From assembly GCA_003225005.1 (NCBI GenBank), contig QIAN01000002.1, positions 1 through 64,000 of the forward strand: DNA of 64,000 nucleotides, in the 5' to 3' direction. Of the stretch, positions 12,649 through 26,360 are shown piece by piece. The DNA comes from Acidobacteriota bacterium. GTDB taxonomy: Bacteria > Acidobacteriota > Terriglobia > Terriglobales > Acidobacteriaceae. Both the position numbers and the translations under genes were made by a program. The notes beneath the pieces were generated by a model. That model was not told where the DNA came from and ran no database searches. It was given only the letters and a program-made list of their open reading frames with translations. Position 1 is the first letter of the stretch, and the number at the start of each line of letters is the position of its first letter.

Positions 12649-13881
12649 ATGGCCAACCCACTTAACCTTGCCTCGTGGCTTACCGCGAAGCGACTGCGCG
12701 CTCAAGGGCTCGTCCTCGCCCTCTGCTCATGGTCGATCTACGTTTGGGATATTTCCGGCCCCGGACTCCGCGACCGTTACGGACTTCTAAAAGGTACCGA
12801 CTTCGTCCACTTATACACACTGGGCTCCCTGGCGCTCACCCATCGTGGCTCCGATCTCTATGACATGCCGTCCCAGGCAGCGCTAGTTCACGAACGCATC
12901 CCGGGCGGAGCCGACATCGTGTATCTCCCCGTTTACCCGCCCCAGGTTTCTATTTTCTTCGCCCCATTGGCTCGCCTTTCCTATGATTGGGCTATTTTCA
13001 TCTGGCTGACTGTCAGTACGGTGATCTATGTTTACTGCTGCTATGCGGTATGGCGCGTCTGTCCAAATCTACGGGACGAGAAATTTACAATATTTATTCT
13101 TGCTGCCGCCTATCCTGCTTTCTTCCACCTGATACTTTGGGGACAAACCTCCGCCCTCGCGCTCGCGTCGTTCACGCTGGCATATTTTGCGCTACGCGCC
13201 GAAAACCACCTCCTCGCAGGGATCGCCTTCGGCGCATTAGCCTTCAAGCCGCAGTTGGGCCTGGTCGCTGCGATCGTTTTCCTTGCGATGCGTAATTGGA
13301 CGCTGATCGCCGGAGCAATCCTGTCCGCGGCGGCTCAGTTCATCGTGGCTTGGCTCTATTTTGGCCTTGATCCTCTCCGCCAATGGTTCCGCATGCTGCA
13401 AAATCTCCCCAGTGCGCTGGCGTTGCTTGAGCCCAGACCCTACCAAACTCACTCCCTGCTCGCTTTTTGGTCCATGCTTGTCCCGTCACCCACCGTCTGG
13501 CTCGTGCTCTATATCGTCAGCGCAGCGTTCGTGCTCGCGCTTCTCATCCTGTGCTGGCGCAGTCAGTTGTCGCTGGCTATCCGCTATTCGGCGTTACTGG
13601 TAGTGACGGTGCTCGTGGCGCCCCATCTCACGGTCTATGATCTCGTGATTCTGGCGCCCGCCTTTCTTCTGCTGGGCGACTGGGTAGTCGCCCATAGGCA
13701 TCATCACCTTACTTTGCGCCTCGCCGCCCTGCTCTACCTCGTCTACCTTCTGCCGCTGGTTGCCCCAGCGGCGCGCTGGACGCACCTCCAACTTTCTGTC
13801 CTGGCCATGTCAGCAATCATTTGGACGCTGTGGCAACTCGCCAAAACGTCTGTGCCCGAACTGCGTAAGCGCGCTCGATAG
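12649..13881 (+). CDS. Membrane glycosyltransferase, GT87 (DUF2029) family
   Basis: 410 residues with about ten hydrophobic helices. GT87 enzymes use polyprenyl-phosphate sugars on the outer face of the membrane; mycobacterial PimE is the characterised relative. The first extracytoplasmic loop contains GTDFVHLYTLGSLAL, with the conserved Asp typical of the active site in GT-C folds, followed by SDLYDMPSQAAL and YLPVYPPQVSIFFAPLA. WGQTSALALASFTLAYF is also family-like. The acceptor is unknown, and no lipid-linked sugar genes sit next to it. It converges with the esterase gene. Confidence 0.8.
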   Translation: MANPLNLASWLTAKRLRAQGLVLALCSWSIYVWDISGPGLRDRYGLLKGTDFVHLYTLGSLALTHRGSDLYDMPSQAALVHERIPGGADIVYLPVYPPQVSIFFAPLARLSYDWAIFIWLTVSTVIYVYCCYAVWRVCPNLRDEKFTIFILAAAYPAFFHLILWGQTSALALASFTLAYFALRAENHLLAGIAFGALAFKPQLGLVAAIVFLAMRNWTLIAGAILSAAAQFIVAWLYFGLDPLRQWFRMLQNLPSALALLEPRPYQTHSLLAFWSMLVPSPTVWLVLYIVSAAFVLALLILCWRSQLSLAIRYSALLVVTVLVAPHLTVYDLVILAPAFLLLGDWVVAHRHHHLTLRLAALLYLVYLLPLVAPAARWTHLQLSVLAMSAIIWTLWQLAKTSVPELRKRAR

Positions 13882-14798: not shown

Positions 14799-15269
14799 TC
14801 ACGAATTCGTGGCCAGACGCAACTTCAGCACTCCTGCCAGGGCAGTAATGCTTGCAATCAAGGCCAATGATGTCAGGCATAAGATGCACCAGGCAGTCAG
14901 CACGTAGGCTTCGATGTAAGTCAAATACAGCGCGAATACCAATCCGCCAGCTGCCGCCATCAGCAATCGCGTCGGGGTTTCAGGGCGGGAGCGGCACAGG
15001 GTCGATAGCGTCAAAAGCAGCCCGTACCCGGCGACGCCGATCAACGAAACAGGGATTCCCGCCACGCTCGAATATTCGCTGCGATTGACGATGTCGCAAT
15101 TGAATTTCTCGCCGAACTCACAATATGCGGTGGCCGACTTCGCATAGTGACGCTCGAGGGAAATCGACGAGACGATCATGCCCGCAAGCGACAGGATGGC
15201 GATCCCGACCAGCAGGCTCCTGGACAATTGTGTTTCGACAACTTCGGCATGGGCAGACGGATTCACCAT
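14799..15269 (-). CDS. Vitamin K epoxide reductase (VKOR) family membrane protein
   Basis: 156 residues with four to five membrane helices. VKOR homologues replace DsbB in many bacteria, passing electrons from periplasmic thiol oxidases to quinone. The loop cysteines are in YCEFGEKFNCDIVNRSEYSS and the active-site CxxC is CILC in TAWCILCLTSLALIA. The conserved Ser/Gly stretch SVAGIPVSLIG is present. The thioredoxin-like gene ends 5 bp upstream on the same strand, so the pair very likely works together in disulfide formation. In cyanobacteria and plants the two domains are fused in one protein. Confidence 0.88.
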   Translation of the reverse strand: MVNPSAHAEVVETQLSRSLLVGIAILSLAGMIVSSISLERHYAKSATAYCEFGEKFNCDIVNRSEYSSVAGIPVSLIGVAGYGLLLTLSTLCRSRPETPTRLLMAAAGGLVFALYLTYIEAYVLTAWCILCLTSLALIASITALAGVLKLRLATNS

Positions 15270-15274
15270 TGAAT

Positions 15275-15703
15275 CTATTGTGGTAGAGGGCAGGCGCTCC
15301 GGGCGCTCAGGTCTTCGATCGAGAGAACACCCTCATGCAGTGCGCCCCCATTGAATTGCCAGCTCGGAAAATTCTTTGTCCCGGCGGCCTTGCACTCTGG
15401 CGTCATCTCTCGCGAGCCCTTAACCGCGCACTCGACATAGGGAACGTACTTAAATGAAGCACCAAACATCTCCTTCTGTTCTATGCAATGCGGACACCAG
15501 TACAGCCCGTACATTCGAGCTTGGTGGGTTGCGAGGCATTTGGCAAATGCCTCATAGCGGTGGTTCTTCCAATACCGGCCAGCGGAATAGGCAGCCGCGA
15601 ACAACAGCACGATTACGCCATAGACGATTACCTTCCGTGAGGGGGCCCTACGATCTCTTGTTCCTTCGCGTTCCTGCTTTTTTTTCCGCCGTTCTTCGGA
15701 CAT
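15275..15703 (-). CDS. Membrane-anchored thioredoxin-like protein, VKOR partner
   Basis: About 142 residues from the ATG at 15703 (MSEERRKKKQ); an upstream start adds 16 residues without support. A basic N-terminal tail is followed by one membrane segment (VIVYGVIVLLFAAAYSAG). The outside domain has the redox motif WCPHC in LYWCPHCIEQKEMFG and a cis-Pro region TKNFPSWQFNG. Layout and neighbours point to a DsbA-like oxidase recycled by the adjacent VKOR. Extra cysteines (ECAVKG, PECKAAG, SACPLP) match the thioredoxin domain of VKOR fusions. Confidence 0.82.
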   Translation of the reverse strand: MSEERRKKKQEREGTRDRRAPSRKVIVYGVIVLLFAAAYSAGRYWKNHRYEAFAKCLATHQARMYGLYWCPHCIEQKEMFGASFKYVPYVECAVKGSREMTPECKAAGTKNFPSWQFNGGALHEGVLSIEDLSARSACPLPQ

Positions 15704-15815
15704 GACACATTTTTTATACCATGCTTTCTCGCGGGCTTCGCGGAGGAACAATTTTCAGAGCGCGGTGTCATCTGCCGGCCTGTGGGGTGGAGTGCGGTCA
15801 CCGCGGAGCGTGCCA

Positions 15816-16724
15816 TTACGCAACAACGTTGAGCGCTCGCGGTAACACGCTCAATTTCTCACAATGCAAAGTCAGCACTTCACCATCCACCATGACGTCT
15901 ACTGGCCCCGCAAGATCAAATTCAGCCAATGGGACCGCTTTTCGTTCAGCCAAGGGATGCCGGATGTGCGTACCGTCGTAAAGTCGGGGCAAATTGCGGA
16001 CAAGTCCCAGCCTTCCGATCGGCCCCCAGCGGACATACTCAATCAGACCGCTGTTCACTTCAGCATGCGGCGCGATCATCATTGTCCCGCCGGTGAACTT
16101 GCTGTTATTAAAAGTGAGAAACAGACTGCGCCGCCGGTCGAAATCGGTCTCTCCGTTCAGGCGAACGGGGAATGGCCGCCGCTCGAGTCGTGCCAGCCCC
16201 AGAAAAATCGAAATGATGTACCCCAGCTGTCCCCAGTCATGGAAGCGCCGAGCGCGCAAGGTGGCCACGTCCGCCGTGAACCCCATGCTCAGCAGATTGA
16301 TGTAGTGGATGATCCCTTCGCGGTGCCGCAACCGGAGCACGTCACAAGTTTGTCTTCGCCGCGCCAAGATCGACTCGATGGCATGTTCGACGCCGCGGTG
16401 GCTGAAATCGCGCAGGAATGAATTTCCCGTGCCCAAAGGCAAAAACGCAAGCGTAGGAATTTCCTTCGCGCTGGCCTCCGGGTAAAGTCCATTCACTATT
16501 TCGAATGAAGTCCCATCCCCGCCAACGGCAATAAAGTCGCGCTGGCCTCGGCGGTAGGCCGCTCGCGCAAGATTCGAGGCATCACCCGGAGCATGGGTTT
16601 CTGCCAGCTCTATCTGAATGCCGCCTGCTCTCAACCGTTCCAGTGCCGGCCCTAGCATCTTGCGGCTTCGTCCGCCCCCGGCGGCGGGATTCACAATGGC
16701 CAGAAAGGATTGCCCGGCACTCAC
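15816..16724 (-). CDS. Lipid kinase of the diacylglycerol kinase family
   Basis: 302 residues, DagK/YegS/LCB5 family, which phosphorylates diacylglycerol, sphingoid bases or related lipid alcohols with ATP. Seen are the N-terminal [11 protein letters not shown], the nucleotide-binding [25 protein letters not shown], and a C-terminal VDGEVL. It is the last gene of the lipid operon and its ATG overlaps the stop of the preceding acyl ligase by 4 bp. That coupling suggests it phosphorylates a lipid made by the operon; this is inference. Confidence 0.87.
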
Positions 16725-18430
16725 AACTTCACCACCGCGCTCCGCTCTATAGTATTCCTGATCTCCTCCGCAAGATCGTTCCGCTTGATCTTCATCGAGG
16801 CGGTGCGAGGAAAGTCCTTGCCCCAGACCACACGCCCACCCACCCGCTTGAAGTCCGGCAGACGCCGATTGCGCGCATTCACTTCTTCCAGCAACTTGCT
16901 GTCAAACTGCTGATTTTGCTCAAGCCGCAAGACCAGTACCAGCAGCTCGCGACCCAGCTCCTTCGCAGGCCAGACATAGTTGGCTGCGATCACCGAGTAC
17001 TCCTTGACCGGCAGTCCATCAAAAACCGACTCAATATCCTCCGGGTAGATATTTTTTCCCCCTTCGGTCACGATCATGTTCTTCTTGCGCCCCAATAGTT
17101 GCAAATGCCCGCTTCCATCAAGCCGTCCCAGATCGCCTGTCAGAAGCCAACCTTCGACAATCGTCTCCATCGTCAGCTCGGGATCATCCAGATAATGGGA
17201 CATTACGGTCTGACTGCGTGCTGCCACTTCGCCCACGCCCTCTGCGTCGGGGTTTAAAATCCGCAGTTCCACTCCCGGCAGCGGCTTCCCAACGGTATCG
17301 GCTCGGAACGGCTTCAGGTCGTTCAATGTGAGCGCCGTGCCTGCTTCGGTGAGTCCATAGCCATTCACCACCGGAATTCCCAGATCATAAAAGAACTGCA
17401 TGGTCGATGGCTCCATGAAGGCGCCACCGGTGATCAGCGCCAGCAAGTCTCCTCCAAAGGCACGGTGCACGCCCGGCAACAGCAATCGGCTGAGCTTTAC
17501 TTTCGGCCGCCTGCGCGTCAGCAACTTATTCAGGCCGATCATGCGATCGAGCACAAATCGCTTCGCGGCCCCCAGTTCATCGAACTTGGCCCGAAGCCCG
17601 CGCTCCAGATTCTTCAGAATCATGGGAACCAGGGCCACGTACGTAATGCGGTAACGCATAAAAGCGTCTCGCACAAACTCCGGACGCAGCGTCCTCAAGT
17701 GCACTACACACGCTCCGCACACGAACGGACCGATGAAACCCACCATGAAGTCGATAGCATGGTTCGTGGGCAAAATGCTCAGATACCTCACGCCCGGCCA
17801 GAACGGGTACCATGCCATCAGCGCCCGGCATTGCTCCAAATAATTTTCATGGGTAAGAACGCAACCCTTGGGACGCCCACCGGTGCCGGAGGAATACACA
17901 ATCGAAGCGACATCTTCCCTTTGCCGCATTACGAAGTCCGGCGCACCCTTACGCTTGAAGTCCTCCCATCGGAACCCGCCTAGCAGGTCAGCCCCCAGTG
18001 GCGCCTCCGTCACCAGAACGATTCTCGTGGTTAGGTTCTGGAAATCAGGAGACTGCGTTATCGCCCGCCACAGGTAGTACTCGACGATGAGTACCGTGGC
18101 CTGGGAGTGTGCCAGGAGCTGCAACTGTTCCGCCGCCGTCAGCTTGAAATCCAGCGGCACAAGCACACCGCCACAGTAGAAGATGGCATATGCCGAGACC
18201 AGCCACTTCGACTGGTTGCTCATCACCATCGCTGCCCGGCCCCCCGCATCAAAACCAGCGTCTTCCAAAGCGCGCGCTAAAGGCAACGCAAGTTCTTTAA
18301 AATCAGAATAGCTCAGCTGTGTCTTCTCACGGTCGCGGTCCGCCTCGATCAGGCAGGTCTGTGCGGCAAAGCGGTCAATCGCATCGCGCAGGGCCGCGCC
18401 CAGACAGGTGTATTCTCGAAGATCGAGCAT
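16721..18430 (-). CDS. AMP-forming acyl-CoA/acyl-ACP ligase (first copy)
   Basis: 569 residues, ANL superfamily. It activates a carboxylic acid as acyl-AMP and transfers it to CoA or a carrier protein. The AMP-binding motif is [19 protein letters not shown], with [15 protein letters not shown] and [13 protein letters not shown] further on. The catalytic Lys near the C-terminus is in [10 protein letters not shown], so it looks active. It sits in the lipid operon 150 bp downstream of the ACP gene and overlaps the lipid kinase by 4 bp. It is diverged from the second ligase, so the two probably use different acids or acceptors. Confidence 0.9.
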
Positions 18431-18580
18431 CGAAGGTTTATTTCACCACAGGAAACACGGCGGTCTACCGAAAAGCTTAGTTATCATTTCATTACCCGGC
18501 TTGGGATCGAGGTGTCCCGAATCGTCCCTCATGATCGGCCGGATTTAGCTCTTCTCGGCGCCCTCGGGGCGAAATCCGGG

Positions 18581-18823
18581 TCACAACCTGGCCTGAATGC
18601 GGCTAGCCAACGTTCGGAAATCGCTCACGCCTTCGAGCTCGTAGTCGGGCAGCTCGACGTGAAAGTGATGTTCCAGTCGCGTCAGCAAGTCGAGGGTCTG
18701 CAAGCTGTCAACACCTAATGTCTTGAAGAAGTCGTCATCGGGGCCCAGTGTCTCCCGTGGCACTTTAAAATGGGCCGCCGCGAGGGTCAGGATTTCGTCC
18801 AGAGTCTGATCAGCCGTTTGCAT
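18581..18823 (-). CDS. Acyl carrier protein
   Basis: 80 residues with an ACP four-helix pattern. The phosphopantetheine attachment serine is in TLGVDSLQTLDLL (G-D/V-DSL motif). The acidic helix II region LTRLEHHFHVELPDYEL fits ACPs rather than peptidyl carriers. It is distinct from a housekeeping fatty-acid ACP because it sits between two acyl ligases and an enoyl-CoA hydratase. It is therefore likely a dedicated carrier for the operon's acyl intermediate. Confidence 0.88.
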   Translation of the reverse strand: MQTADQTLDEILTLAAAHFKVPRETLGPDDDFFKTLGVDSLQTLDLLTRLEHHFHVELPDYELEGVSDFRTLASRIQARL

Positions 18824-18866
18824 ATTCTCGCCCTTTTCAATTTACTGCGATTCGCTGTTGGCACTT

Positions 18867-19712
18867 TCACGGCAGGTACGGCTGCGCGTCCGTGCTCTCC
18901 ACAAACTTCTTCAGCCCAGCCTGAACCACAGGTCGCCCAAACAGATCACAAAAAATATCGATTTCCTGCCGCAATTCTTCCTGCGGGACCGGCTTGATAA
19001 AACGCTTCGCCGCAATTGCCGTTTCGCGGTCAAACTTGCTCAATTGCACTGCCGTAGCCCGCGCAACGCGCAAGGCCTCTCCCTCGCCAACCATCTGGCT
19101 CACCAGGCCGACCTGAAGTGCCTTGGTCGCATTAAAGCTCCGCCCGGTTAACAGCAGGTCGCGCACAACCCCATTTCCCAAGTCCCGCTTCAACCGAGGA
19201 ATTCCGCCGAATCCCGGGATCAATCCCAAGCGCAGCTCGGGGAAGCAAAACCGCGCCATTTTATCGGCGATGATCAGGTCGCATGCCAGCGCCAACTCAA
19301 AACCTCCCCCGAAGACGACACCATGCACGGCCGCAATCGTAGTCAGCGGGGCGGCATCGATCGTATTGAGTACCTTGTGAATGCGTTCCAGAAAGTCACG
19401 CACGCCGCGGAGACCTTCCGCCTTCGCCATGCCTTGCCAGCGATGATAAAGCTCGCGTAAATCGGCGCCCGCGCAGAAACCGCACTTCAATTCACTGTAA
19501 ATGATAAGCGCATGCGCTTCCGGCTGAAGGCTTTCAAGCGCTCGGGCGAACTTCTCTAGCTCGTCCAGAGCCAACGACCCCAGCTCATTGCAAGGCTCGC
19601 GGTAGAGCGCCAGTTCGATGGTGCCGTGCTTCAGCTGCCAGGACAGGGCCTGCCCGCGAAACGAGTGGCCGCTGTGCGACTCGCCCCGGGGCTGTTCCTG
19701 TAATGTCCTCAT
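18867..19712 (-). CDS. Enoyl-CoA hydratase/isomerase family protein
   Basis: 281 residues, crotonase fold. The oxyanion-hole segments are KCGFCAGADLREL and HGVVFGGGFELALACD. Both glutamates used by true hydratases are present, one in GGFELA and one in FPELRLGLIPGFGG, so hydration/dehydration chemistry is plausible. About 25 extra residues precede the fold. Its stop overlaps nothing, but its start overlaps the second ligase by 4 bp. In the operon it may act on an acyl-ACP or acyl-CoA; the exact bond chemistry cannot be read. Confidence 0.87.
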   Translation of the reverse strand: MRTLQEQPRGESHSGHSFRGQALSWQLKHGTIELALYREPCNELGSLALDELEKFARALESLQPEAHALIIYSELKCGFCAGADLRELYHRWQGMAKAEGLRGVRDFLERIHKVLNTIDAAPLTTIAAVHGVVFGGGFELALACDLIIADKMARFCFPELRLGLIPGFGGIPRLKRDLGNGVVRDLLLTGRSFNATKALQVGLVSQMVGEGEALRVARATAVQLSKFDRETAIAAKRFIKPVPQEELRQEIDIFCDLFGRPVVQAGLKKFVESTDAQPYLP

Positions 19713-21358
19713 GCCGTTTTGACCGTCTGGTACATCTCTTCGATCTCGCTATTCATCCGAGCTGCAATCACGTCGCGTTTCACCTTCCCGTTTGCCGTCA
19801 AACACCCGTTTTCGATGGAGAATCCCTCGGGCCGCAGGGAAAACGCTCGCACCTGCTTGTAATGCGGGAGGTCAGAATTGACCGCATCCAGAGCGGTTTG
19901 TACCTGCTCCCGGGTCACGCTTCCGGTCACAATCGTTGAAAGATAGCCGCGCCCATTGCCTATCAGTACGACTTGCTGCGCGCCCGGCAGATTCCTCAGA
20001 ATCTGTTCTTCAATCGGCTCGGGAGAAAGCTTGTGCCCGGATCCCAGAACAATCAGATTCTTGATGCGGCCGACAATCCGCCAATTGCCCCCGGCATTCA
20101 CTTCCCCCTGATCGCCGGTATGGAACCATCCCTCACCCCGTGCATTCGCACTCTCCAGCGGCCGGTTCCAGTATCCGGGAAACACATTCGGCCCGCGAAC
20201 CAGAATCTCATCATTCTCCCCCAGCTTCATCTCCACGCCAGGAACCGCCGGACCTACCCGCCCCGGTTGCACATGATGCGGATCATCCATGGTGCAGATC
20301 GCCGTCGTTTCCGTCAACCCGTAGACCTGCAACACTCGGATCCCCAGCATCATGAAATAAAGCTGCGTTTCCGGATTCAGCGGGGCCGACCCGCAAATCA
20401 AGGCCCTCAAATTCGAACCGATCATCTTCTTACGAATGGCTGGAAACACCAGTTTATTCGCCAGCCAAAGCCACACCCTGTCGCCAGCCTGCGGTCGTTT
20501 TTCCGGTCCGCGTGCCCACGCGCCCTTGGCCCGCGAATAAATCACCTGAGCCACGCCGCCCGTCTGCCAGAGCTGCTCGTCCACCGCCCGGCGCATGCGG
20601 TCCAACAATTGCGGCACGTTCAAGAAATAATCTGGACCTACTACGCGCATATCGTTCGCCAGCCTGGCGAGATCCATGTTGAGAATAACCAGGCTTCGCC
20701 GCTTTAAGAATGTAAGCAGTGCAATCCACGAGGCGGCAAAGCTCAGCGGCAGATAGTGCAGAATGCGATCCTGGCCGGCCCGGCCTTCCATCAATTGATC
20801 CAAGCGCGCCGACGTCGATTCCAGCATGAATCCGACATTCGCCGCCGTCAGTACCACGCCCTTGGCTTCCCCGGAGGTTCCCGACGTGTAAATGATCGTG
20901 ACCGCGTCCGACTCTCGGACCTCGGTCTGATCTATGGCCACACCGTCTACTCCGGCAAATATTTCCTCAAACAACACTTGCGATGGAGCTTCCGGCCAGG
21001 CATGAACGATGCCATCCCTGAGCGCCGCGTCACCGCAGCATAGCAATGACGGCGCGCAATCCTTCATCATCGCGACCAGCTCCGCCGGCGCCTGGCGCGC
21101 ATATAGCGGCACTACAATCAGTCCTTCGGCCATCATCGCCAAGTCGAGCGCCACCCACTGGATATTGTTTGGCGCCAGCAACCCGCAACGGTCGCCTTTC
21201 TTCAGGCCCCTTGAGGCAAGAAAAGTTCTCGCCTTCCGCACTAACTCCAGCAACTCAGTTCCACTGACACCGCCAACCGTGCCGTCGTGGCTCTCGGCCA
21301 GCACTCGCATGTCTCCAGCCTCTCTTAACTGCGAAAATGTTTCCTCTACGAAAGCCAT
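19709..21358 (-). CDS. AMP-forming acyl-CoA/acyl-ACP ligase (second copy)
   Basis: 549 residues, ANL superfamily, long-chain fatty-acid ligase-like. AMP-binding motif IIYTSGTSGEAKGVVLTAANV, then QVYGLTETTAICTMDD, WFHTGDQGEVNAGGNW and the catalytic Lys in LTANGKVKRDVIAAR. All core motifs are intact. It lies 30 bp after the pyruvyl-transferase-like gene and overlaps the enoyl-CoA hydratase by 4 bp. Two ligases and one ACP in the same operon suggest one loads the ACP and the other primes a second acyl group, an inference from arrangement only. Confidence 0.9.
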   Translation of the reverse strand: MAFVEETFSQLREAGDMRVLAESHDGTVGGVSGTELLELVRKARTFLASRGLKKGDRCGLLAPNNIQWVALDLAMMAEGLIVVPLYARQAPAELVAMMKDCAPSLLCCGDAALRDGIVHAWPEAPSQVLFEEIFAGVDGVAIDQTEVRESDAVTIIYTSGTSGEAKGVVLTAANVGFMLESTSARLDQLMEGRAGQDRILHYLPLSFAASWIALLTFLKRRSLVILNMDLARLANDMRVVGPDYFLNVPQLLDRMRRAVDEQLWQTGGVAQVIYSRAKGAWARGPEKRPQAGDRVWLWLANKLVFPAIRKKMIGSNLRALICGSAPLNPETQLYFMMLGIRVLQVYGLTETTAICTMDDPHHVQPGRVGPAVPGVEMKLGENDEILVRGPNVFPGYWNRPLESANARGEGWFHTGDQGEVNAGGNWRIVGRIKNLIVLGSGHKLSPEPIEEQILRNLPGAQQVVLIGNGRGYLSTIVTGSVTREQVQTALDAVNSDLPHYKQVRAFSLRPEGFSIENGCLTANGKVKRDVIAARMNSEIEEMYQTVKTA

Positions 21359-21388
21359 GGCTATTTTGGTAAGCGGTGAGCGGTAAGG

Positions 21389-22801
21389 TCAGCTGTACGC
21401 GGCCACCAACCGTTGAAGCGAGGAATTCATCGGTGACAAATAATCTTCCCAACTCCATTCTCCCTTGCGTGTCGGGAACTCCGGATATCTCCGCTGCACT
21501 TCTTCTTCGAAATACACACCCATTCGCGCCATTACCTTCAAATTCTTCACCACGGTACGCGCCATGCCATCCGCGATGCGCTCGCCCTCAGTCGCCAGTT
21601 TATCCAGCGCCGCCAGCAGCTTGGGCTCTAGGTCCAGATCATCCACGTTCATCAACAAATCCAGGTGTCCGCGTTCGCGCATGAGATTGCGAATTCGTTC
21701 ATCCATCGTGATTCCCGCCGACGGCACCAGGGCCGGCATCGACGTGACGATGCCGTGAAAGCGGGAGGAAACCATCATGTGCCCGGCGCGCAGGATACTC
21801 ACCATCTGGTACATGTCACGCTCCTCGGAGGTGAACACGGGCAGTTCACCGCCCAGTTTTTCGGAAATGCCTCGGCAGGCGCGCGCATCCAGTGCCTCGG
21901 TCGCAACCAGAACTGTGAATACTCGGCGCCGCTGCCGGAACCCTTCAACCGCTCTCGCGATCGCAGTCAGATAGCGTTCGAAGGCAGCGTCCACGTCGTG
22001 GCCGGACTTATGGAAGTAAACGGTGCGGTAATGACTGTCCCGGTAAGCGCCGGTTGCAGCGCAAGCAGCATATTTCACCAACGACGGCTTCACCGGCCAC
22101 CAGAACGGATTAATGGGGCAGACGATCAAAACCGGCAGCTTGCCGTCCCATCCAGCGTCGGTCAAAGCCTTGCGCCCATACTCCGGCGGAAGCGGCTCGA
22201 AGGTCCATGCCGTGTCGGTTCCGAGTTCTGTTGGCACCCCGAGCCCCCGGAGAACAGTGCGCGATTCTTCATTGCGCGTGATGATGAGGGAACTCTTGCA
22301 ATAACGGGCACACATTCTGGCGACGAGCGGATCCATCTGTCCCGCCTCTGATCCGTAGCCAACGGCAAGCTTGTTCTGAGCCGCTGCCATCCCTAATGAG
22401 CCAATGATCATTGTGGTCAGCGCATTGGCGAACTTGCTCTTGAAGGCCGAGCCTTCGACCACAACCACCCCGTGGTGCTTTGGGACTTCACGGGACAAGA
22501 ACGGCGGAAAGACATCCGGGAGATGAACCTGCTCTGCGCCGGCGAAATAGCCGCGCGTCAGATCAAAATTCTGGGACATCGCAGTGAACTCGACATTGTC
22601 AGCGCCCAGGATGTGCCGGAGCTGGCGCAGAGTTTCCTCGGGGCGCACGTCGGAGCCCGTGTTGCGGGTTCCGTTGTAGCCGGCAAAAAGCAGTTTCAGC
22701 TTCTCTCCGGGCTGCCATGGCTTCCCGGCTCCTAACACCCAACTGGCCTTGGCGCGCTCGATGGCCGCGCTGACCCAAGCCTCAAGGATGAAATCCATCA
22801 T
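21389..22801 (-). CDS. Polysaccharide pyruvyl transferase family protein
   Basis: 470 residues, PS_pyruv_trans family (CsaB/WcaK-like), which transfers the enolpyruvyl group of PEP to sugars as ketals. The N-terminal half has [20 protein letters not shown], a typical variant of the GYxGxxNxGD start. [13 protein letters not shown] and [12 protein letters not shown] follow, and the C-terminal half has [19 protein letters not shown], the conserved RxH segment. It overlaps the SDR gene by 4 bp. A sugar-modifying enzyme in a lipid operon is unexpected; the product may be a glycolipid, or this member may use another acceptor. Confidence 0.83.
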
Positions 22802-23931
22802 GCCGCAGATCCCCCTGCAGTTCGAGGCCAGGGTTTATAGGTAAAGCTGAAGTTATTTTCCCGGCTGAACTTCAGCAGCGCATAGCTGTATTGAGAAAAC
22901 GGTACTGGCTTCCGTCTCAGTTCCGACACGACTCGCGTGTTATCAAAGATCGTGTTCCAGGTCAGATAAGGCATGAACACTTTCATGAGCGACGCGCTCT
23001 GACCTACAGGCCCCGTACGATTGGCTAACCAGTTCACCGCTCCCGCGAACGGCCGCTCCAGGAGCGGCATGTAGATCGGCCCCCGTCTGTTCTGCGCCGC
23101 CGCCAGCGCAGTTGTCAATTCCCGGAATGTCTGCGATTGTCTTCCTGAGGACAAGTGATAAGTGTCGTGCTGCGGCTGGTCCTTCTGATGCAAAGTTGCA
23201 ATTGCTTCAGCAACAAAATCTACGTTCACAATGTCGATCTTGTCGAAGGGACGAAACGGAAGAACCGGCAGCCCAGCCAGGAAAGCAAATGCCTGCACCA
23301 TCTCGAATTGCGTTGTCTCAGGATAGCGGCTGTCCCCCAGCACAATGCTTGGCCGGAAAATGATCTTGGGGGTGTCCGGGAGAAGTTCTCGCATCATGTG
23401 CTCGGAGAACTTCTTGGTCCGCGCATAGGGATCGTAATCCGACCGGTCCCAGTCGATCGATCTGTCCTCGGTGACAACTTCATTCGTGCGCTTTCCAGCC
23501 ACCGCTACCGTGCTGACTTGACTGAAGCGACGCAATCCGTGATAGTGCTCGACCGCGCGAGCCAGTTGCAATACTTCGAGAGTGCCCCGCAAGTTCACGT
23601 TCAAACAGCTTTTCTCTGATTTCCGGTTCAACGAGGCCGCGCAATGAATCACGGAGTCGGTCGTGTGAATGAGCCGGTCATAATCGTCGGGACCGAGCCC
23701 GAACCGCGGGGATGTCAGGTCTCCACGAAAAATTCGTACTCGTGTTTGCACATATTCATAAAAGAGCGGAAAGTCGAGGTGCAGCTGCAACGCCTGCCAC
23801 AGACGCAGCTCGGCCTCGCGCAGGTCACCCGCCCGCACCAGAAGGTTCAGGGCAGCGCCGTGATCCTCCAGCAGATTGGCGGCCACATGCGCTCCGATGT
23901 AGCCGGTCGACCCGGTCAGGAATATCGCCAC
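22798..23931 (-). CDS. Extended SDR, thioester-reductase-like
   Basis: 377 residues. NAD(P)-binding motif [18 protein letters not shown] at the N-terminus, active-site YARTKK (YxxxK), and [29 protein letters not shown] typical of the Lys2/thioester-reductase and FAR-like branch. Members reduce carrier-bound acyl thioesters to aldehydes or act on sugar/steroid substrates. It overlaps its upstream neighbour, the FAR fusion, by 16 bp and its downstream neighbour by 4 bp, so expression is tightly coupled. Likely a second reductive step of the pathway. Confidence 0.83.
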
Positions 23932-26360
23932 GTTGCTCCGTTAGTCCCCGTCTTCGCCGTTTCACCATTCGCCGGCGCCAGTTTAAAACTGCGCGGCGCG
24001 CGGGCTTCTAGCGGCCGTCCCTCGATCAGCGGATACGTCCACCGCCGGAGTGCGGGAATATGAACGTTGATCCAATATTCCCACCAATCGAGCGAACGGG
24101 TGTGATAGCCGAATCCTGCCTGCTCCTCCGCAACCAGGGCATGCGACAGTTTCTCGATGTTCTCTGCGGTGAAGTCATGTTCGTTCAAGAGTATGAATGG
24201 CTCGAACAGCTGAATGAGTTTTTCCAATCGTTCCAGGTTACGCTCCGTTTTCACCAGTGGCGTCTTTTTCAATGGCAAGGGAGCCATGATTCGCTGGATC
24301 GACTTCACGATCGCTTTCTGCGCCGGCGCCGACATGCGTTCGTACCTCGTCTTCGAAACCGGGATCGCATCAAACCGCAGCCTCAACCAGGATTCCAACC
24401 CTTCCTGTGCGCGGTAGTGCTTGCGGTGTGCCAGAGAAGTCAGCTCAATAGAGCGCCCCATGTCGCATGGATTGGTTGCCGAGGTTGCCAATTGATATAA
24501 GCGGTCGTGTCGCCCCTCGATAATAGCTGCCGCAATTAGCGTCATTCCGTTGCAAACATCGTCCACCGGAATAATGTCCAGCCGCTTGCGCTCGTTCGAG
24601 GGCAATTGACGAAAGTACGTTCCTAACAAATACGAAAGCGAAGCGGAAGTGTTAATGCCTTCATTCCATCCCGCAAAAGGCTTCGCCACCGAGGTTTCGA
24701 CAATGGCTGGACGAACAACCGCGATCGGTAGTCCCGCGCCATGCTTGGCAATCCATGATTCCGCCAGGCTCTTGGTCAGGGTATAGGTGTTGGGCCAGCC
24801 CAACTCCCGAGCTCTTTTCGTCCCGGCTTCGGTGAGATATGTCTTCAGCCAACGAATTCGGTTTTTGCGAATCTGGTTTTCCAGTGCCGCACCACGCAGA
24901 TCTTTGGCTGCATGCTCCTTCTCTTGCGCCCGCGTTTTCAATTCTGCAGTCACTTCCGAGCTCTCCGCCTTCGCCTCCGCCTGCTTCACCAGGTCATGCA
25001 GGCTCCGCCATTCACGCTCGGCATCGAAGCCGGGCAAGTGCCGTGGATTGTAGTCTTCCATCAGCCGTTCGGGCACGCGTCCGTCCTGTTCTCCGGCAAC
25101 ATAGCAGGTGGAAAGATGTAACAATCCAGTGCGTTCCGAACCGCGCACAAATTGCACGATATTCACTGCCGCATCGGTGTTGGTAGCCAGCGCATCACGC
25201 AGATCAGGATTGAAGTCCGTCAAGCCTGAACTATTAATGATGATGTGTAAACTCTTCTGCAGACTCCGTGCGGCATCCCTCTCCAAGCCCAGGCCCGGTT
25301 GGGCGACATCGCCCTCGATGACCTCGACCTTTCCACGAAGGAATTCCGGCAGCCCCCCTCCGTACCGTTCGAACAACGGATCGAATACCGGAGATTCTTC
25401 CACCATCTTTTCAAAGCGCCGCTCCGCCGGATTCGACTTTTGCCGCCGGATGAGCAGATAAATCCGGCCGATCTCGGGCAGATCGAGCAGAGTATTGGCC
25501 AACCACACTTTGCCGATGAACCCGGTCACTCCTATCAGCATGACGTGCTTGCCCGACAATGTCCGGCGCACCGAAAATCGCTCCAGCCGTCGTTGCCCAT
25601 CAAAGTAGACAATCGGACGCTCGAGCACGGGAACACTACGTTCGGCAGGCACCACCGCTGACCGCACTTTCCGAACCTCAAGGTCCAACTCTCGAGCGAT
25701 TGATTCCGCGTCGCGTTGTCCGTCCGGACCACTCCCCGTGATCCTGGCGAACAGCCCGCGCGGGCGGGTTACCGGCTCCAGCAGCCGACCCGTAGCCACA
25801 CCATGACGAAACTCCAGCCGATTCGCTACCAGCCAGCTCACGCCCAAGTGGGCGGCCAGCGGACGCATCACGTGATCCAGGCCTTGACTCACCAAAACAA
25901 CGTCCGCGCCCGAGCTCTCGAGTTCGCGTAACCGCCGCACCCCGTCTGGCTTCAAGTGCGGCTTCAGCTTGTACAGGAAGTATTCCTCGCCCAACAGATC
26001 GAGCCGGTCGCGAGTGATCCCGCGCAGCACGCTATGCACCACTCGTGTGGCAAACTTGCGGTCCGCCGCATAGAGAAACGGTCTCAGCGCTGCCATCAGG
26101 AAGATCAGGCTCCGCCGTACAGACCGCTCCAGAAACGTTTGTGCATTCCACGTGAAGAACGCCACTGGCCGTACAACCGTCAAATCCAGCAGGCTGCCTT
26201 CCACCCGCCAGTAGACTGGCGCGCCGACCTCGGGAACACCGGAAGGTGCGCTCGGCACGCCTCGGATTGCGTCGCAATTGTGAATCGAAGGTTCCAAATT
26301 AGTTAGGCTCAAACAAGGGTTACGCCGCAAGCCTAGGACGAAGTCCTCTATTGTAAACAA
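23916..26360 (-). CDS. Fatty acyl-CoA reductase with degenerate HAD-like N-terminal domain
   Basis: Up to 814 residues. Residues of about 45-235 resemble a HAD-IB domain, but the nucleophile motif is [11 protein letters not shown], with Arg where the catalytic Asp belongs and no GDxxxD motif IV. Only VVLVSQGLD (motif II) is clear, so phosphatase activity is doubtful. From about 270 it is a fatty-acyl-CoA reductase: [18 protein letters not shown] (NADPH site), [10 protein letters not shown], and [13 protein letters not shown] (YxxxK), with a FAR-type C-terminal region. Such enzymes reduce acyl-CoA/ACP to fatty alcohols. The start is uncertain: the longest frame begins with TTG at 26360, and a GTG at 26258 is also possible. 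First gene of the lipid operon. Confidence 0.83.

Follow-up and report, generated by a model that had tools for sequence, protein, structure and literature searches.

A conserved eight-gene operon from Acidobacteriota, related to ElbD and probably dedicated to an alkyl glycerolipid

Described ether-lipid systems and layout of the operon

The closest described system is the elb cluster of Myxococcus xanthus (VEPE/AEPE, BGC0000871), which includes a HAD protein with a DxD motif (ElbB), a LarA-like ElbC, an epimerase-type SDR (ElbE) and ElbD, a single protein in which a FAR1-type fatty acyl reductase (FAR), an AMP ligase, an ACP and an AGPAT part are fused. ElbD is known mainly from genetics. The accessible part of one account describes its own chemistry as unsettled (PMC9131029), and that of a study of Pontiella reports ElbD homologues and no ether lipids found (PMC11868695). 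In the portion available, a 2017 paper (PMC5552659) describes as 'yet unknown' the mechanisms by which ether linkages at sn-1 or sn-2 arise. Ester-to-ether reduction by Ger/PlsAR would yield the same lipid class, although with other enzyme families. A search for DUF2229, a domain of Ger/PlsA, gave 0 matches in the genome studied here, with a positive Thermotoga control.

The window, that is, the whole stretch of 64,000 nucleotides that was analysed (Acidobacteriota bacterium, contig QIAN01000002.1), carries eight adjoining ORFs at 26360-15816, all on the minus strand. They are joined by overlaps of 16, 4, 4 and 4 bp and gaps of 30, 43 and 150 bp, with one gap above 50 bp, so the one-strand arrangement given in the original prediction is confirmed by the ORF coordinates. 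Its domain names for the eight genes were reproduced by Pfam, and its remark on the lack of a ketosynthase holds for these eight genes. In five relatives, a FabH-type gene was observed inside the operon.

The first gene encodes a fusion of a HAD-like domain with a FAR1-type fatty acyl reductase (Pfam HAD, NAD_binding_4 and Sterile). Since 8 of the 24 relatives listed share a TTG-Glu start corresponding to position 26297, 21 codons inside the ORF, the start was shifted from 26360 to about 26297, and the gene most likely spans 26297-23916 (793 aa). It is followed on the same strand by an SDR of the thioester-reductase type (22798-23931, NAD_binding_4), a polysaccharide-pyruvyl-transferase-like protein (PPT, 21389-22801, PF04230, PS_pyruv_trans), a FadD11-like acyl ligase (LIG1, 19709-21358, AMP-binding and AMP-binding_C_3), a crotonase of the enoyl-CoA hydratase family (ECH, 18867-19712, ECH_1), an acyl carrier protein (ACP, 18581-18823, PP-binding), a second acyl ligase (LIG2, 16721-18430, AMP-binding) and a YegS/DgkB-type lipid kinase (DGK, 15816-16724, DAGK_cat and YegS_C). 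Two further minus-strand neighbours, a gene at 15275-15751 that neither Pfam nor NCBIfam matches at E 0.001 and a VKOR family gene at 14799-15269, are outside the cross-phylum set.

Conservation of the block

Eighty relatives were collected through the PPT gene, and gene order was judged in the 42 loci where the sequence extends 4 kb or more before it and 7.5 kb or more after it, the remaining 38 having too little flank on one side. In 34 of the 42, all eight genes are present with order and strand unchanged. The conserved block occurs in Acidobacteriota, Latescibacterota (L056), Planctomycetota (L086, L229, L230, L232, L233) and Myxococcota, where the carriers include the Nannocystis isolates L080-L083. 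N. exedens and N. pusilla, both available as laboratory strains, have the operon. Synteny thus extends to distant relatives in four phyla, and the earlier label of a lipid-type operon is supported. One locus labelled Alphaproteobacteria (L074) is near-identical to L086 (Phycisphaerae), with flanking clusters common to both; one of the two taxonomic labels is probably wrong, and because of this near identity Alphaproteobacteria were left out of the phylum count. Apparent fusion proteins around the PPT in Planctomycetota (a 1571-aa frame in G1022) were resolved into separate genes by profiles.

Broken blocks were also found. The genome of L060 keeps ACP-LIG2-DGK-PlsC as a second block, and those of L087 and L093 keep ECH-ACP-LIG2-DGK, with LIG1 seen in neither block. 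After the PPT, LIG1 is missing from L096 and L097, and ECH is also missing there from L097. The genes past ECH are lacking in L039 and those past ACP in L025, though 7.4 and 2.4 kb follow, respectively; both loci are outside the 42 judged. In the stretches examined, L234 has the PPT without FAR and SDR and L179 is without DGK, while the profile search did not detect HAD in L237 and L239. The PPTs of L077 and L089 stand alone, showing that this type of transferase can also act in other pathways, and no LIG2 match at 1e-60 was found in the genomes of L077, L089 and L092. A 1614-aa frame next to the lone PPT in L089, considered as an ElbD, is actually a TIR-STAND protein.

Downstream of the block, PlsC was looked for in the 41 loci where the kinase is on the plus strand and followed by 0.9 kb or more of sequence. 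A PlsC acyltransferase gene lies 3' of the kinase in 16 of these, many of them distant relatives. It was not detected in the other 25, and none adjoins the operon in the window. Of 41 loci, 20 have a counterpart of the 15275-15751 gene 3' of the kinase.

Active sites and comparison with ElbD

Catalytic residues were kept in every part checked except the HAD. In the FAR, the Tyr and Lys are present in 67 of 67 rows with letters at these positions. The Sterile domain scored 34.2 bits, just under the Pfam cut-off of 35.4, and the solved FAR 7eoz aligns across both the NAD_binding_4 and Sterile parts. By its sequence, the operon FAR has the features of the FAR1 type (NAD_binding_4 with a Sterile C-domain, and Tyr-Lys), and an alcohol product is predicted. 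In a tree with a single outgroup type, operon FARs and ElbD FARs form sister groups, moderately supported (92/84 and 86/80), and both are separated at 100/100 from FAR-GNPAT proteins, whose counterpart is presumably MXAN_1675 (the GNPAT part was assigned without Pfam). The window's genome has one FAR.

The operon HAD is similar to the one encoded in elb-type clusters, but R/K-x-E replaces DxD in all 61 operon HADs with letters (62 rows, one gap), whereas D-V-D-G was found in 12 of 12 HADs located beside 15 ElbD-type genes. As read from the alignment, the catalytic aspartate is lost and the HAD would be "dead". For the SDR, Tyr and Lys are kept in 74 of 74 rows with letters, and the 10 PDB matches at E 0.001 are without exception PKS, NRPS or CAR reductases, with MxaA among the best solved relatives; the score against the NCBIfam thioester reductase model was 118 bits, under the cut-off of 213. 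Unlike the CAR and NRPS terminal reductase domains, its nearest solved relatives, the operon SDR is free-standing, with no fused carrier or ligase. Both catalytic Glu of ECH, the phosphopantetheine Ser of ACP (61/61) and the GGDGT motif of the kinase (50/50) are kept. In the ligase tree, LIG2 groups weakly with the ElbD ligase domain (91/60); this tree omits the duplicates L202 and L203 as well as seven own-genome ligases that were distant, L192, L204 and L205 did not pass the inclusion limits, and the ElbD loci L172 and L174 were excluded from both trees.

PPT belongs by its PF04230 match with the ketal pyruvyltransferases CsaB and Pvg1p, and the known reaction of this family, in the accessible part of the source, is ketal pyruvylation of saccharides (PMC10435577). 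Four positions inferred to bind PEP are intact in the alignment (R176, R347 and H349 in 84/84 rows each and R369 in 83/83 rows with letters), in line with the Arg, Arg, His and Lys(Arg) of those enzymes; the residues were placed by hhalign to a canonical paralogue, and CsaB numbering was mapped by spacing and motif only. The structure model (pLDDT 92.1) superposes on UDP-GlcNAc 2-epimerase with Z 22.3 and rmsd 4.2 over 330 residues, as expected for a GT-B fold, while Pvg1p (5ax7) was not among the 50 matches listed. Against PDB sequences, phmmer with a single sequence gave no match and the profile search one chance match only, and the NCBIfam CsaB model spans only residues 37-378 of 470. The operon PPT is distinguished from CsaB and Pvg1p by its strong divergence and its lipid-operon setting, and a saccharide acceptor would follow only by analogy. 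An amphipathic N-terminal membrane helix, taken as a hint of a lipid acceptor, was discarded, its moment being no greater than that of shuffles (median fraction 0.545, 42 rows).

Operon and elb thus share a HAD, a FAR1-type reductase, an AMP ligase, an ACP and one SDR. In the ElbD-type proteins of Myxococcota, which stood in for the M. xanthus sequences, FAR, a LIG2-like ligase, ACP and PlsC are fused, whereas the operon has separate genes and PlsC accompanies it in many relatives but is not among the window's eight. Since PlsC in relatives completes the ElbD parts list, the earlier idea of a split ElbD gains support, together with the sister FARs, the HAD likeness and the weak LIG2 grouping. 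Identity with elb was rejected because of the dead HAD, four extra enzymes (PPT, ECH, a second ligase and the lipid kinase), the lack of an adjoining LarA-like ElbC and the other SDR type. Neither a LarA-like ElbC nor an epimerase-type ElbE was found by Pfam among the eight genes; in the elb clusters tested, the gene at the ElbC position is Lar_N in 2/2, which discards PPT as ElbC, and that at the ElbE position is of the Epimerase type in 1/1. Across 235 Myxococcota genomes, PPT was found in 31 and an ElbD-type frame in 57, with both in 1 where 7.5 would be expected, an exclusion confounded by kinship. In the accessible part of a 2025 preprint, Nannocystis and Sandaracinus are listed without a VEPE (elb) cluster (PMC12224551), and two Nannocystis genomes gave no FAR besides that of the operon at 1e-10.

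Proposed pathway and its alternatives

In at least 13 of the 60 FAR-bearing genomes of the family, a radical SAM gene precedes the operon on the same strand at a distance of 0.8-10.4 kb (the 11-kb limit was chosen after the list was inspected), and it was also found upstream in five of the collected loci. Its best NCBIfam match is the tetraether lipid synthase Tes, at 314-315 bits for three full-length proteins, but this is below the equivalog cut-off of 450, and the gene adjoins the operon in some family members without belonging to it. In the window's genome it is apart from the operon (C238 vs C419); it is present in 183 of 200 family genomes, with or without FAR, and 5 of the 12 carriers tested (L086, three Nannocystis and Paraliomyxa) gave no match to it at 1e-20. 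Its upstream position in part of the family gives circumstantial support to the link with ether and membrane-spanning lipids made in the original prediction. A need for the operon in making iso-diabolic acid is not supported: its type of FAR is found in only 60 of the 200 family genomes while, according to the accessible part of a 2026 paper (PMC13274423), 17 cultures from subdivisions 1 and 3 contain the acid in abundance.

Taken as a split and elaborated relative of ElbD, the operon would be a dedicated pathway from fatty acids through fatty alcohols to an alkyl membrane glycerolipid, a reading to which we give a probability of roughly 60%; the alkyl linkage would most likely be an ether. 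Fatty acids would be activated by a ligase with the ACP and reduced by FAR to the alcohol, which the PEP-dependent transferase would couple to a three-carbon unit. This unit would then be completed as glycerol by the hydratase and the thioester reductase, and the kinase and PlsC would give a phosphatidic-acid analogue for normal phospholipid synthesis.

A specific version of these steps, which is a tentative and rather doubtful proposal, would form 2-O-alkylglycerol from a fatty alcohol and PEP as a further bacterial route to ether lipids. PPT would move the enolpyruvyl group of PEP onto the fatty alcohol, as MurA does onto a sugar, and a ligase would load the resulting 2-alkoxyacrylate onto ACP or CoA. 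The crotonase would hydrate the 2-alkoxyacryloyl thioester to 2-O-alkylglyceroyl thioester, the thioester reductase would release 2-O-alkylglycerol, and the kinase would phosphorylate it before acylation by PlsC. The ether would be on the middle carbon, as in the 2-O-monoalkyl glycerols known in bacteria. Since all eight genes and PlsC are employed, the two ligases and two reductases would be explained. No PEP route to ether lipids was found in the titles and abstract openings of the openly licensed papers listed, and the related literature of this kind that was searched had no mention of 'pyruvyl transferase'.

Alternatively, FAR, ligase and ACP would make an alcohol-based lipid, and PPT would add a ketal pyruvate to its sugar or diol head group, much as CsaB acts on wall polymers. 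The known reaction of the family and the conserved putative PEP residues are consistent with this, as is a GT87 glycosyltransferase gene that the window (12649-13881) and ten related loci carry on the other strand, downstream of the operon; it was assigned by Pfam for the window's gene and one of the ten. This alternative is nevertheless unlikely. The GT87 gene is convergent with the operon, is separated from it by several genes and was observed in acidobacterial loci only, the eight or nine cross-phylum genes include no glycosyltransferase, and the hydratase and second reductase would be left without a role.

Fatty acid turnover commonly involves FAR, ligases and ECH; ligases, ECH and reductases could instead shorten, desaturate or reduce chains, with the alcohol stored or esterified as in wax or alkane formation and with PPT and kinase as passengers; the FabH inserted in five relatives would also suit this. 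We consider it improbable, since PPT and kinase are kept with the other genes in 34 of the 42 loci, although these were collected via PPT, and neither thiolase nor 3-hydroxyacyl dehydrogenase is among the eight genes. A sphingolipid-like pathway is very improbable: the Caulobacter ceramide genes do include a dedicated ACP, an acyl-ACP ligase, an SDR and a lipid kinase, and the operon kinase weakly matches sphingosine kinase 1 (2.3e-9), but the eight genes contain no aminotransferase of the serine palmitoyltransferase type, and FAR and PPT have no place in such a pathway.

Under the preferred reading, an alkyl glycerolipid made by a split relative of ElbD, the operon separates ElbD-like functions into single enzymes and does so in cultured Nannocystis, where an ElbD-type reductase was not found (two genomes), while its PEP-type enzyme gives a concrete chemical hypothesis. 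Branched membrane-spanning tetraethers are widely used as climate proxies, and the operon's linkage, in some members of one acidobacterial family, with a Tes-like gene bears on their source. If the reading is true, the operon would provide a gene marker for these lipids in four phyla.

Gene content and conservation of the operon

The eight genes at 15816-26360 and their arrangement were real as originally predicted, being open reading frames on the minus strand. By Pfam and NCBIfam, they encode a HAD domain fused to a fatty acyl reductase (FAR; gene 1), another reductase with an NAD_binding_4 domain (SDR), a pyruvyl transferase that is CsaB-like but divergent (PPT), an acyl ligase closest to FadD11 (LIG1), a crotonase (ECH), an acyl carrier protein (ACP), a further acyl ligase (LIG2) and a lipid kinase of the YegS type (DGK). 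Gene 1 was retained with a corrected start, giving about 793 aa and not 814, since a TTG-Glu start equivalent to 26297 is common to 8 of the 24 relatives listed. Neither DUF2229 nor a second FAR was found in the source genome (7.9 Mb, 550 contigs).

A PPT scan with one genome per species found 110 relatives; 80 were retained, and family profiles built from them were run on all 80 loci. Since the loci were selected via PPT, its own presence is built in. All eight genes were found on one strand and in order at 37 of the 80 loci by profile search, the incomplete ones lying mostly near a contig edge, with breaks also in L039 and L025. The whole-block conservation that the original prediction proposed to check was found across acidobacterial and other genomes of several phyla, with the set complete and ordered at 34 of the 42 loci having at least 4 kb before and at least 7.5 kb after PPT. 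The operon is complete in Planctomycetota (L229, L230, L232, L233) and Myxococcota (L180, L181). The eight exceptions among the 42 are L020, L060, L087, L092, L093, L096, L077 and L089. The genome of L060 carries ACP-LIG2-DGK-PlsC (PlsC, an acyltransferase) as a second block elsewhere, and those of L087 and L093 carry ECH-ACP-LIG2-DGK likewise. LIG1 is in neither block of these last two relatives. It may be dispensable, since two relatives (L096, L097) lack it at its usual place after PPT. At L020 (11433-19400), all eight genes are present with the second half inverted, so that the block from ECH to the kinase faces the first half head-on. L077 (8648-11425) has a same-subfamily PPT directly 3' of a cytochrome P450 gene, with no other operon genes, and a 1614 aa TIR-STAND protein is encoded directly upstream of a stand-alone PPT at L089 (4994-9838, Schlesneria MAG).

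Occurrence across genomes is patchy. Counting the window's genome, 14 of 396 Acidobacteriota have PPT (one a weak 28% match), as do 31 of 235 Myxococcota and 12 of 294 Planctomycetota; within the window's family, FAR turned up in 60 of 200 genomes, the window's again included. This patchiness argues against the operon being required for iso-diabolic acid, which, in 17 cultures from subdivisions 1 and 3, is reported to make up 20-40% of fatty acids (PMC13274423). L074 and L086 have near-identical operons and flanks; their MAGs bear the titles Alphaproteobacteria and Phycisphaerae, respectively, one of them probably wrong.

Relation to ElbD

The M. xanthus elb operon is described as an epimerase-type gene, a HAD gene, ElbC, ElbD and a second epimerase-type gene, ElbD being a FAR-ligase-ACP-acyltransferase protein whose disruption strongly reduced ether lipids (PMC9131029). 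With the window's FAR as query, matches were obtained in 101 of 235 Myxococcota genomes, most of the frames being about 520-890 aa or about 1540-1770 aa long (some reaching 2257) and about a dozen intermediate. All three long frames tested with Pfam contain FAR, AMP ligase, ACP and PlsC, and one has SCP2 above the cut-off. A HAD gene lies about 2 kb upstream of the long-class gene at 12 of 15 loci fetched. The gene between the two, in the position of ElbC (a protein of unknown function according to a review), is LarA-like (Lar_N) in both clusters tested (L168, 5437-7032; L170, 5109-6719), so a 2-hydroxyacid enzyme may be part of the ElbD pathway.

In a tree of 36 reductases with a single outgroup type, the 20 operon FARs were sister to the 13 ElbD-type FARs with moderate support, and three FAR-GNPAT-like proteins split off at 100/100. 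In the ligase tree, LIG2 grouped weakly with the ElbD ligase (91/60), while LIG1 formed a separate lineage, nearest to a ligase of its own genome (L194; 100/99). HAD and FAR, fused in the window, are encoded by separate genes in Nannocystis and further myxobacteria. Active sites were surveyed in the window, in all 80 loci and in six others, counting rows with letters at the site. Kept throughout were the Tyr and Lys of FAR (67/67) and SDR (74/74), the ECH Glu pair (64/64), the ACP serine (61/61) and the DGK GGDGT motif (50/50), and the ligase signatures showed few changes. In the HAD domain, Arg or Lys and Glu replace the two phosphatase aspartates in 61 of 61, which makes it a pseudo-phosphatase by sequence, conserved as such and probably serving in binding or docking, unlike the HADs beside ElbD-type genes, where D-V-D-G is intact in 12 of 12. 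The predicted likeness to ElbD, split into separate genes, is supported moderately by FAR and weakly by LIG2.

Among 235 Myxococcota genomes, the 31 with PPT and the 57 with ElbD-type frames (hand-compiled at 1300 aa or longer, some long frames in GC-rich DNA not being genes) overlap in one, against 7.5 expected (hypergeometric 0.0012, kinship ignored); this genome, G429, has both loci (L178, L179). The VEPE (elb) cluster is listed as absent in Nannocystis and Sandaracinus in a preprint (PMC12224551), and no second FAR was found at 1e-10 in two Nannocystis genomes searched.

Genes around the operon

Among 41 loci with the kinase on the plus strand and at least 0.9 kb beyond, a PlsC-type acyltransferase follows the kinase in 16, a window-like small gene preceding VKOR in 20, and neither in five. 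PlsC also follows it in L180, L181, L229, L230, L232, L233 and L234. In the window, the small gene, without family match, and VKOR occupy 14799-15751 after the operon; the small gene was undetected in non-acidobacterial loci. A FabH-type ketosynthase lies between ECH and ACP in five acidobacterial loci (L053, L055, L058, L059, L066), and an MFS gene upstream is kept in eight related loci. Two adjacent thiol-activated cytolysin domain genes interrupt the PPT-LIG1 interval in an uncultured myxobacterium (L095, 11402-14382).

Upstream of the operon, L057 (4099-6279), L043 (209-2374), L045 (1556-3673), L052 (47-1309) and L071 (34-1344) carry a radical SAM gene that also encodes an HMPTM zinc ribbon, two copies running off the contig edge with the C-terminal part alone visible. 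In NCBIfam it matches 'tetraether lipid synthase Tes' best, at 314-315 bits in the three full-length copies (cut-off 450). Its presence carries little information, since 183 of 200 family genomes carry it (1e-60), the window's genome on a different contig (C238) from the operon; its position says more. In at least 13 of the 60 FAR genomes, it is on the contig and strand of FAR, with 0.8 to 10.4 kb between its end and the downstream FAR domain, whereas random placement would give about 0.1% of genomes, the distance limit being set post hoc. One FAR-bearing family genome has it 249 kb away, and in the remaining FAR genomes listed it is on a separate contig or absent. The operon is independent of this gene, since only 7 of 12 carriers tested have it, L086, three Nannocystis and Paraliomyxa lacking it. 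Solibacter usitatus is described as without ElbD, with Tes homologues proposed for brGDGT synthesis from diethers (PMC10087280).

Pyruvyl transferase and proposed product

PEP contacts of CsaB are reported as R148, H308 and K328 by mutation and R306 by docking, K328R retaining activity at a reduced KM for PEP (PMC10435577). The window PPT aligned with a canonical paralogue of the same genome (hhalign E 4e-6, 23% identity), giving R176, R347, H349 and R369 as counterparts with identical +2 and +20 spacing; the first three are kept in 84 of 84 and R369 in 83 of 83. The confident structure model (pLDDT 92) has a GT-B fold (Z 22.3, rmsd 4.2, 330 residues). PPT thus likely uses PEP.

Among solved structures, SDR has ten relatives at E 0.001; each is the reductase domain of a PKS, an NRPS or a carboxylic acid reductase, and MxaA ranks first. 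The operon thus has two enzymes for activation and two for thioester reduction, as would suit the activation and reduction of two different carboxylic acids. Solved relatives of ECH, a broad family, include 3-hydroxypropionyl-CoA dehydratase, which acts on terminal acrylyl thioesters. In an economical reading, the first acid would be a fatty acid that, as in ElbD, passes from LIG1 or LIG2 with ACP to FAR; the second would derive from PEP. PPT would place an enolpyruvyl group onto the fatty alcohol, giving a carboxylate for activation; the crotonase would hydrate the double bond and SDR would reduce the thioester to 2-O-alkylglycerol, on which DGK and PlsC would act. This PEP route is a tentative and rather improbable proposal.

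No lipid phenotypes of operon carriers were found in the open-licence literature searched. A GT87 glycosyltransferase gene downstream of the operon on the opposite strand (12649-13881), kept in ten related loci, leaves room for a pyruvylated lipid as the product. The broader reading, to which we give a probability of about 0.6, is that the operon would make an alkyl or ether lipid in an ElbD-like manner.
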